Below the pieces are notes generated by a model that was not told the origin of the DNA, ran no database searches, and saw only the letters and a list, made by a program, of their open reading frames with translations. The translations under genes and the position numbers were made by a program. From positions 62,001-126,000 of the forward strand of contig CALYQQ010000008.1 in assembly GCA_945288535.1 (NCBI GenBank): a DNA stretch of 64,000 nucleotides, given 5' to 3'. The DNA comes from an uncultured Enterobacterales bacterium (GTDB lineage Bacteria; Pseudomonadota; Gammaproteobacteria; Enterobacterales; CALYQQ01). Of this stretch, positions 38,284-41,799 are shown piece by piece (position 1 is the stretch's first letter; each line of letters opens with the position of its first letter).

Positions 38284-41001
38284 TTAAAACCACTGACCAA
38301 AACGATGAATATAGAATCGTTTCATTGATTGAGAAACAATGCAATAGCTAATTAATATAGCTGCTAACCATGGAAAATATTCCCAAGGTAATGGTACTAG
38401 ACCAACAATATTTCCTAACGGTGAGAAAGGAATATAAATACCAATAGCCATTACAATACCTGTCATTAACATAACGGGTAATGCTGCAACACTCTGAATA
38501 AACGGTATTTTTTGTGTTCGTAACATATGTACGACCAGTGTTTGTGATAAAAGACCTTCAACAAACCAACCAGATTGGAATAAAGCTTGATGTTCAACAC
38601 TATTCGCAGCAAAGACAAACCACATTAATGCATAAGTTGCAATATCAAAGATTGACGAAATTGGACCAATCCAAATCATAAATCGACTAATATTTTGTGC
38701 ATCCCATTTCCGAGGTGTACGTAAAAACTCTTTATCCATCTTATCCCAAGGTAAAGAAAGCTGTGAGACATCATATAATAAATTTTGAATCAATAAATGA
38801 ATCGCCAGCATGGGTAAAAATGGAATAAAAGCACTTGCAACTAAAACAGAAAAAACATTTCCGAAATTAGAGCTTGCTGTTATATTCAAATATTTAATGA
38901 TATTACCGAATGTTTCACGTCCTTTAATAACCCCTTCTTCAAGAACCATAAGATTTTTTTCTAAAAGAATAATATCGGCAGATTCTTTTGCAATATCAGT
39001 ACCGCTATCAACAGAAATACCCACATCGGCATCTCTTAACGCAGGAGCATCATTAATGCCATCACCTAAAAAGCCTACGGTATGGCCATTTGCTTGTAAT
39101 TGTTTAAGTACGCGAGATTTTTGCAGTGGTGTTAATTTAGCAAAAATAGTCCGTTCTTCAACATGGTCAGCGAGCTGTGCATCACTCATGTTCTCAATTT
39201 CATCACCAAGGAGAGGTAATCCAGGCTCTAAACCAACATCACGGCAAATTTTTGTCGTAATGACTGGATTATCACCCGTTAGCACTTTTACCGTTACACC
39301 ATATTTTACTAATGAATTAATGGCTTCTTGTACACTATCTTTTGGTGGATCAAGAAAAGTTAATAATCCATTTATAACAAGATCATGCTCATCTTTAACA
39401 CTTAACAATTGATCGGGTTGATGATGTCTAAGATCACGCGTTGCAATCATTAATACTCTGAAACCTTGCTCATTATAATAATTTGCTAATGATAATAGAT
39501 CACTACGACGCGCTTCAGTAAGTGGTTCTTGCTTACCCTCAATATTGATAAATGAACTGATTTCCAGCATTTCTTCTACAGCGCCTTTACAAATTAACTG
39601 CTGGTGTTGATTTTCATCCTTAACCAAAATAGATAAACGACGTCGGATAAAATCAAAGGGAATTTCATCCACTTTTTGAAAACGGCTTAATGATTCTATT
39701 TCTGGTTTATTTTCAGTGAAACGAAGAATAGCCTTATCCATTAGGTTTTTGAGACCACTTTGATGGAAACTATTTAACCAGGCTAATTGCAAGACATTAA
39801 ACGACTCTTTACCTTGCGTATCTAGGTGATGTTCAAGGATAATTTTATCTTGCGTTAATGTTCCAGTTTTATCTGTACATAATACATCCATTGCGCCAAA
39901 ATTCTGAATTGCATTTAGTCGTTTAACAACAACCTTCCGCTTCGACATGGCAATAGCGCCTTTTGCCAGATTAGAACTCACAATCATAGGTAACATTTCT
40001 GGCGTCAGGCCTACAGCAACTGCCAACGCAAATAGTCCCGCTTCAATCCAGTCACCTTTAGTAAATCCATTAATCAAAAGTACAATTGGTACCATGATTA
40101 ACATAAAGCGAATAAGTAACCAACTTACGCTGTTAACACCTTGATCAAAGGCTGTTTTAGCTCGACTACCTACAATTGATTTAGCCAGAGAACCAAAATA
40201 GGTATTAGATCCAGTTGCAACAACCATTGCTTTTGCTGTACCACTTGATACATTTGTCCCCATCAAACAAATATTCGCCATATCAAGTAGTTTACTTTCA
40301 CTAGGTTCCGCATTGTTCGCAATTTTCTGACTTACGTTGCCAAGTGTGTCATATTTTTCAATAGGGATTGATTCGCCTGTTAAAATAGCTTGGCTAATAA
40401 AAAGATCGCGTGATTCAATTAATCTAACATCAGCAGGTACCATATCTCCTGCAGAAAGATAAATTATATCGCCTGGTACCAACTGCTGTAAGGGTATTTC
40501 TTGTTTAGTACCTTCGTTATTAAATTCACTACGACGTAATACCGTTGCTGTTGTTCTAACCATTGATTTTAAAGCTTCAGCCGCTTTATTTGTTCTAAAT
40601 TCTTGCCAAAAGCGTAATAAAGCACTCAATGTGACCATCGTTGTAATAATGATTACACTCGTTAAATCCGTTGGTTCGCCATGTTGTTGTGGAAACCAAT
40701 AATCCGTAAAAAAACTGATAATAGCTAATATAGCCAAAACATAAATAAATGGATTATTAAATGCTTGAAAGAGTTGTAACAATGCGGCCGGTGCTTTTTC
40801 ATGGGCAACTTGATTTGGGCCATATTGTAAATAACGTTGTTCGGCTTCACTCTCAGATAAACCGTCAAGATTGGCATTTAAACGAGAAAATGTATTAATT
40901 AGTGTCGTTTTTCCGGCATCAGCAATTCTAAATGTTGCTTGTTGTTTGGCATACTTTGTCTTTGATCGTTTTTTTTCTTTTAATTGAGTTGGTTTGGTCA
41001 T
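38284..41001 (-). CDS. mgtA: Magnesium-transporting P-type ATPase
   Basis: P3-type ATPase importing Mg2+ across the inner membrane, 905 residues (E. coli MgtA 898). A basic N-terminal region is followed by helices starting near 84. The actuator motif TGES lies at 208-211, phosphorylated Asp377 in DKTGTLT, the hinge LTGDNP and GDGINDAPALRDADVG, then the six C-terminal helices. AGGAA stands nine bases before the ATG. The leader contains a short ORF and competing hairpins (see separate entries), resembling the MgtL-controlled leader known in Enterobacteria. MgtA and MgtB cannot be told apart with certainty. Confidence 0.96.
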   Translation of the reverse strand: MTKPTQLKEKKRSKTKYAKQQATFRIADAGKTTLINTFSRLNANLDGLSESEAEQRYLQYGPNQVAHEKAPAALLQLFQAFNNPFIYVLAILAIISFFTDYWFPQQHGEPTDLTSVIIITTMVTLSALLRFWQEFRTNKAAEALKSMVRTTATVLRRSEFNNEGTKQEIPLQQLVPGDIIYLSAGDMVPADVRLIESRDLFISQAILTGESIPIEKYDTLGNVSQKIANNAEPSESKLLDMANICLMGTNVSSGTAKAMVVATGSNTYFGSLAKSIVGSRAKTAFDQGVNSVSWLLIRFMLIMVPIVLLINGFTKGDWIEAGLFALAVAVGLTPEMLPMIVSSNLAKGAIAMSKRKVVVKRLNAIQNFGAMDVLCTDKTGTLTQDKIILEHHLDTQGKESFNVLQLAWLNSFHQSGLKNLMDKAILRFTENKPEIESLSRFQKVDEIPFDFIRRRLSILVKDENQHQQLICKGAVEEMLEISSFINIEGKQEPLTEARRSDLLSLANYYNEQGFRVLMIATRDLRHHQPDQLLSVKDEHDLVINGLLTFLDPPKDSVQEAINSLVKYGVTVKVLTGDNPVITTKICRDVGLEPGLPLLGDEIENMSDAQLADHVEERTIFAKLTPLQKSRVLKQLQANGHTVGFLGDGINDAPALRDADVGISVDSGTDIAKESADIILLEKNLMVLEEGVIKGRETFGNIIKYLNITASSNFGNVFSVLVASAFIPFLPMLAIHLLIQNLLYDVSQLSLPWDKMDKEFLRTPRKWDAQNISRFMIWIGPISSIFDIATYALMWFVFAANSVEHQALFQSGWFVEGLLSQTLVVHMLRTQKIPFIQSVAALPVMLMTGIVMAIGIYIPFSPLGNIVGLVPLPWEYFPWLAAILISYCIVSQSMKRFYIHRFGQWF

Positions 41002-41063
41002 AACGCATATTCCTTTTTAGGTACAGCAGGTTCCCCCGTAGGCGAATACGGTATTAACTTACT

Positions 41064-41141
41064 GCGTCAATTAACTAATTAATTGCGTTGCTGACAGGTA
41101 ATTTTAGAAATATTAACCCTGGCAACGCCGGTTATATTTCT
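41064..41141 (-). promoter_or_regulatory. Mutually exclusive hairpins in the mgtA leader
   Basis: Transcribed on the minus strand. Hairpin A: AGAAATATAACC (41141-41130) pairs with GGTTAATATTTCT (41118-41106), one bulge, sequestering the end of the leader ORF. Hairpin B: GCGTTGC (41128-41122) pairs with GCAACGC (41091-41085). Hairpin C: ACGCAATTAA (41088-41079) pairs with TTAATTGACGC (41074-41064), one bulge. B excludes both A and C. This is the geometry of a translation-coupled attenuator. Confidence 0.6.
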
Positions 41142-41160
41142 GTTCGGGGTGCTCGTCCAT
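41113..41160 (-). CDS. Leader peptide ORF upstream of mgtA (15 aa)
   Basis: ATG at 41160, AAGGAG seven bases upstream, 15 codons (MDEHPEQKYNRRCQG) and TAA. The ribosome-binding site is much better than expected by chance. Its last codons lie inside a hairpin that can refold downstream. In E. coli and Salmonella the 17-codon mgtL ORF (proline-rich) controls mgtA; this ORF has the same position but only one proline, so homology is not claimed. Confidence 0.5.
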   Translation of the reverse strand: MDEHPEQKYNRRCQG

Positions 41161-41799
41161 AGACGCTCCTTAATCACAACAGGTGATGGTTTGATTCATC
41201 GATAGCTAGCTTAATACAATCTATATGACCTAAGATTAACTAACGTAACACCTAACGAGATACTATAAATATCCTCCTATTAGGGAGATATAACTTATCG
41301 TTAATGTTATCAATATGTTAGATAAATTTGATAATCAAACTTATAAAAAGTTGCTATAACATTAAAATAATTAACCACCTAAGTGGATTATCGCCCTGGT
41401 GGGGAAGTGTCCGAGTCTCGCTTTGCATTTCATAGTTAAAATGCATATATGCACAATTAAGTAAACTAAGTAAACAAATTTACTTTATTGTTGGGAATGC
41501 AATAGCTCATATTAAGAGGTAAGTGCTGCCCGCCGGATGGCAAGCAACAAAAGATAATGGAGTTGACTTGCCTATTTAATTTTTACATTATGACGCCTAA
41601 AATTTGTGTCCAATGTGTTTCTCCATTTAAATAATCCTTCGCTAATATACGTGTCACTAAATATATTGTAAAGAATAAATTTCTACATTTACGTAAAAAT
41701 TTGTTTACGATTAAGTAAGTTAGCTACAAAATAATAAAAAATAAACAAGATGTTTTGTTGGTTTAGTTATCTATAGTATTTTACCATGCTAATGTAAAT
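41161..41799. other. Long 5' region between queC and mgtA
   Basis: About 640 bases. On the minus strand it has several GC-richer structured segments near 41380-41430, including GCATTT/AAATGC and CCACTTAGGTGG, suggesting a long structured mgtA leader. No canonical PhoP box was found. Confidence 0.45.

Follow-up and report, generated by a model that had tools for sequence, protein, structure and literature searches.

Introduction

A short open reading frame (ORF) lies just upstream of a predicted Mg2+-transporter gene in the genome of an uncultured Enterobacterales bacterium (GenBank assembly GCA_945288535.1, contig CALYQQ010000008.1). Does this ORF regulate the transporter, and if so, to what does the ribosome that translates it respond? 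An earlier note on the same DNA had described a new ORF in an mgtA leader and suggested that the position of a ribosome on it could select between competing RNA folds. Here we follow up these proposals in the window, meaning the whole 64,000-nucleotide stretch of the contig that was analysed, and in related loci. All features described below are on the minus strand of the window.

Results

The gene downstream of the ORF (38284-41001) encodes a Mg2+-importing P-type ATPase of 905 amino acids (NCBIfam TIGR01524, 1422 bits). Its product shares 54% identity with E. coli MgtA, as against about 70-78% with the products of genes directly 3' of mgtC in Serratia, Yersinia, Xenorhabdus, Providencia, Klebsiella and Salmonella subspecies. 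The gene is therefore of the mgtB type, and the name mgtA that it had been given does not hold. Several genomes carry one copy of the ATPase at 70-76% identity together with another at 55-56%. One contig labelled Bacillus subtilis SK6B4 (locus L084, compared with L085) contains an mgtB locus that closely resembles the one in Pseudochrobactrum kiredjianiae, and is probably mislabelled or contaminated.

The ORF itself (41113-41160) begins with ATG at 41160, consists of 15 codons (MDEHPEQKYNRRCQG) followed by a stop, and sits 159 nt before the mgtB-type gene. Its strong Shine-Dalgarno (SD) sequence, AAGGAG (41166-41171), which the earlier note had pointed out, is placed 5 nt before the ATG. The peptide starts MDEHPE, with acidic residues D2, E3 and E6 and a single proline, P5, one codon later than in Salmonella mgtQ. 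In 80 named relatives and the window, we counted ORFs that were SD-led, 7-25 codons long and situated 95-290 nt before mgtB, and that encoded acidic residues and an early proline; 54 of the 81 leaders, which are not independent loci, contained one, while 0.03 were expected from dinucleotide shuffles. The peptide start M-[DE]-[DE]-H-P recurs in Yersinia, Serratia, Pectobacterium, Hafnia, Enterobacillus and Providencia. It is this acidic N-terminus that is conserved; the C-terminal codons differ between genera.

By its sequence, this ORF is orthologous to mgtQ, a leader ORF published for Salmonella (Choi et al. 2021, PMC8092293), and is thus not new. The leader is a genuine regulatory leader of an already known kind. 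Orthologs of mgtQ were listed for Erwinia, Yersinia and Serratia in that study, besides which a whole-word search of the literature collection used here returned no paper using the name. Loci L116-L136, L138 and L002 come mostly from genomes of one family, f27. In most of the f27 genomes that we examined, the mgtB homolog is preceded, at a distance of about 410-575 nt, by another SD-led ORF, which is strongly conserved and of the type MDTQSGHPKMWGDKFKHIIIG; most of these genomes lack the mgtQ motif. Leaders from Pseudomonas and Phyllobacterium (L060, L068 and L103) carry, at about -185, longer ORFs of 44-45 codons starting MDEPPSRP, MDEPFSRP and MDDYPSRP.

Which property of the ORF would be sensed? 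The earlier note offered Arg-Arg or Cys codons as one cue, and CGG CGT TGC does occur in the window, within an RNA strand considered below. We nevertheless regard sensing of amino acids, by starvation of the ribosome at Arg-Arg, Cys or Pro codons, as very improbable. Arg-Cys codons are found where the RNA strand GCGTTGC or GCGTTGT is kept (the window, Enterobacillus and some Serratia), and Providencia and Xenorhabdus have no such codons, yet retain equivalent pairings; C-terminal residues thus vary between genera while the pairing persists. The window ORF has only one proline, and in Salmonella a synonymous change of the Pro codon of mgtQ had the same kind of effect as missense changes, exerted via the RNA stem (PMC8092293). 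The other cue that had been suggested, Mg2+ sensed through destabilization of the ribosome by the acidic start, fits the conservation of the acidic N-terminus and, by analogy with Salmonella, may well apply here.

A Mg2+-transporter leader with alternative folds could also be a riboswitch that binds Mg2+ independently of ORF translation. To this reading we give hardly any credence, as the most conserved feature of the leader is an ORF and no known Mg2+ riboswitch family in Rfam matched anywhere in the window, nor in the leader even at relaxed thresholds. Elsewhere in the window, Rfam identified a 6S RNA at 47823-47642 (RF00013, 113.8 bits).

Competing RNA pairings

In predicted folds a hairpin, A (41106-41141), covers the second half of the ORF and extends 7 nt past its stop codon; within it, codons 7-10 base-pair with the stop-codon region and the nucleotides that follow. 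Hairpin A, which would take the role of stem 1:2, holds strand 2, GCGTTGC (41122-41128), lying within codons 11-13. The fold scan and alignments that located strand 2 also define, together with a shuffle test, two further strands: strand 3, GCAACGCA (41084-41091), which includes GCAACGC at 41091-41085 and can pair with either strand 2 or strand 4, and strand 4, TGCGTT (41002-41007), which touches the mgtB start codon. Both the ending of the ORF inside hairpin A and the alternative pairing of GCGTTGC with GCAACGC, each noted earlier, were borne out in sequence and folds. In minimum-energy folds the full 3:4 structure (40997-41095) joins GUCA..AACGCA to UGCGUU.A.UGAC, includes the AUG and closes the mgtB start region. 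Strands 2 and 4 thus compete in silico for strand 3 in mutually exclusive pairings, and the switch extends to 40997, past the end of the segment first proposed (41064-41160).

The overall folding energy of the leader was rejected as a distinguishing signal, being unremarkable (z = -0.83; -2.39 from 41143 on). A shuffle test of all three strands without an anchored strand 3 was modest for the window (p = 0.04) and missed Hafnia, where strand 3 overlaps the end of a longer ORF. With strand 3 picked from the ORF alone, its pairing to the mgtB start region had p = 0.004 in the window, and 22 of 35 loci reached p <= 0.05.

Conservation of the helices

The earlier note had named lack of conservation of the ORF and stems in relatives as grounds for abandoning its proposal; both proved to be conserved. 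In an alignment of 16 taxa (A1), helix 2:3 was paired in 87.7% of cells, compared with 15-65% for slid controls, and helix 3:4 in 91.6%, with G-U retained where A-U was lost; these percentages are favoured by the derivation of the A1 structure from the window. Six Yersinia have a double change of UA to CG in helix 2:3, and two Serratia have one of CG to UA; helix 3:4 displayed no covariation beyond shuffles in these 16 taxa. In a separate alignment of Providencia (A2), the paired fraction was 94.1% for helix 2:3, in which two taxa changed AU to GC, and 96.4% for helix 3:4, which had one GC to AU. All such double changes represent few independent events linked to clades. Pectobacterium, Brenneria and Erwinia have kept the ORF and mostly lack pairing of the window type. 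Several relatives (Yersinia, Serratia, Xenorhabdus and Providencia) are predicted to adopt 2:3 when no ribosome is present, so hairpin A is not a general element of these leaders.

Ribosome position and access to the mgtB start

To mimic the leading edge of a ribosome, we truncated the leader stepwise from its 5' end and refolded the remainder, using models that ignore ribosome kinetics and Mg2+. The free leader was predicted to form 3:4 with a probability of 0.92. With codon 8, 9, 10 or 11 as the first free codon, the probability of 2:3 was 0.92, 0.98, 0.99 and 1.00, respectively; codon 12 gave a mixed state, and from codon 13 on 3:4 returned to about 0.9. The leading edge of a ribosome lies approximately five codons beyond the codon in the P site. 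With this offset assumed, first free codons 8-11 would correspond to a P site at about codons 3-7 (Glu3 to Gln7), on or just past the acidic-Pro cluster.

The predicted accessibility of the mgtB AUG and the preceding 6 nt was 0.51 in the 2:3 state and 0.16 otherwise, a difference that none of 100 shuffles of the window reached. It is mainly these nucleotides that change, as the accessibility of the mgtB SD barely shifts between the states (0.42-0.44). Among relatives, the same test gave 1/100 for Enterobacillus (L053) and 0/100 for both Providencia L087 and Xenorhabdus (L070); it was weaker for S. oryzae (L052) and Providencia L102, each 4/100, and not significant for Yersinia (L048), at 16/100. 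The scan and the shuffle test thus agree, in silico, with the original suggestion that which fold forms can depend on where the ribosome stands on the ORF.

Might translation of the ORF instead control transcription? Ribosome drop-off would then govern access of Rho and hence transcription into mgtB rather than initiation of translation. E. coli MgtL, which likewise begins with acidic residues and proline, sets a precedent, as drop-off there prevents Rho-dependent termination (PMC11282234). We nonetheless hold this explanation to be unlikely, considering that strand 4, which is conserved, lies immediately next to the mgtB start codon, that the minus strand has no intrinsic terminator-like site between the ORF and mgtB, and that mgtQ of Salmonella affects translational but not transcriptional fusions (PMC8092293).

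An mgtCB leader without mgtC

At the 5' end of the operon, a region at 41517-41633 matches the mgtCB-operon leader, with its mgtM attenuator, over the full length of the Rfam model (RF02887; 30.7 bits, E = 0.00034), although below the gathering score of 48. Homology to that leader, while falling short of the membership cut-off, is supported by a sequence motif common to the window, Serratia and Yersinia (GGAGAAAC..TTGGACA..GGCAAG..TTGCTTGCC..GGCGGGCAGCA) and by a likely promoter, TTTACA-17-TATATT (41644-41672), which matches the consensus at 10 of 12 positions and aligns with a conserved promoter before the equivalent leader in relatives. Since 41633-41517 corresponds to the mgtCB leader, the transcript very likely starts near 41637. 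This removes the main worry of the earlier note, a start downstream of 41160; the start that we predict is far upstream. No convincing PhoP box was found before the promoter.

Within this region we predict an mgtM-like ORF with a TTG start, MDTNFRRHNVKIK (41572-41613), whose frame and place match the TTG- or ATG-initiated mgtM ORFs of relatives. Another candidate for the mgtM equivalent, the ATG ORF MEKHIGHKF at 41626, was rejected: its ATG overlaps the GGAG that would serve as SD for the TTG ORF, and the frame in use among relatives, opened by TTG or ATG, begins MD. Where mgtP would sit, the window has no Pro-Pro ORF with a start codon. At about 41410-41380, TCCCCACCAGGG reads Ser-Pro-Pro-Gly in a frame that lacks a start codon, and might be a degenerate mgtP. 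Our search for Pro-Pro ORFs in relatives applied a strict SD filter, which missed published Serratia and Yersinia cases (PMC3641672).

The operon thus retains the mgtCB leader region at its 5' end and has no mgtC. Neither the operon nor the genome, 96.6% complete, contains the gene, positive controls having been detected, and tblastn revealed no remnant of it between the two leader parts. The same order without mgtC occurs in Brenneria, Hafnia, Enterobacillus and other relatives. A PhoP ortholog was not found in the genome either. The best match is 38% identical, whereas PhoP proteins of the enterobacterial, mgtCB-bearing relatives that we checked share 76-85% identity with the E. coli protein; the ortholog is thus probably missing. 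The genome has one gene for L31, on which the action of mgtQ is described as depending.

The loss of mgtC, the failure to find PhoP and the sub-threshold score of the mgtM part might all indicate that the ORF and pairings are mere relics of an mgtCB ancestor whose regulation has been lost. Such decay seems improbable to us, for the SD, the acidic codons and all the strands are intact in an AT-rich leader, and the computed switch ranks with the strongest that we observed.

Discussion

We conclude, with a probability of roughly three in four, that the ORF represents mgtQ, the leader ORF of mgtB, located in an approximately 636-nt 5' leader that derives from an mgtCB operon minus mgtC, and that it works as a ribosome-position switch. 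Without a ribosome, hairpin A would hold strand 2, strand 3 would pair with strand 4, and the mgtB start would be closed. A ribosome reading the whole ORF would cover strand 2, so that 3:4 would still form. At low Mg2+, a ribosome stalling or dropping off at D2-E3-H4-P5-E6 would break hairpin A and free strand 2, which would then take strand 3 and open the mgtB start. We infer this mechanism for the present organism from conservation of the ORF and helices and from the computed position dependence; the effect of the acidic codons is borrowed from Salmonella, where such codons abort translation of mgtQ and raise that of mgtB (PMC8092293).

These results extend mgtQ from a few published species to most of the sampled enterobacterial mgtB leaders and add comparative support for the 2:3/3:4 switch; by computation, the acidic codons fall in the very range of codons over which the switch flips. 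The novelty lies in a Mg2+-importer gene that retains its mgtQ leader in a genome lacking mgtC and any recognizable PhoP. Tentatively, and as a possibility that we would not favour, the tandem leader ORFs, mgtM-like and mgtQ, might themselves carry the Mg2+ control of mgtB, with ribosome destabilization on mgtQ acting as the main sensor instead of a fine adjustment under PhoP. A natural case lacking mgtC and apparently PhoP could allow the Mg2+ sensing of the leader to be studied alone.

The locus has features of three known systems. The first ~120 nt of its transcript match, at full length, the mgtCBR leader that contains mgtM and mgtP (RF02887; PMC3641672), differing in the score below gathering, the TTG start of the mgtM-like ORF and the lack of a start-codon Pro-Pro ORF at the place of mgtP. 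Like E. coli MgtL, the leader ORF of mgtA, the window ORF precedes a Mg2+ importer and has an acidic-Pro start of the ribosome-destabilizing kind; past that start, however, the peptides are unrelated, and the window ORF, in place of the proline-rich sequence of MgtL, has one proline and precedes a gene of the mgtB type. With mgtQ of the Salmonella mgtCBRU operon it shares a short ORF with a strong SD just before mgtB, an acidic N-terminus with an early proline and, in silico, stems 1:2 and 3:4 opposed to 2:3, the mgtB start region being part of 3:4, the arrangement through which Salmonella mgtQ raises mgtB translation (PMC8092293). The Salmonella ORF has 8 codons, of which Asp2 and Glu5 impede its own translation (PMC8092293), and its proline is at codon 4; in contrast, the window ORF has 15 codons, acidic residues at D2, E3 and E6, proline at codon 5, and strand 2 inside the ORF. 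Because no mgtC lies upstream, the window ORF occupies a 5' leader and not the intergenic region between mgtC and mgtB. That position was not counted as a defining feature of mgtQ, since other relatives also lack mgtC and the Salmonella study itself links mgtQ to mgtB, citing Brucella, where mgtC is not upstream (PMC8092293).
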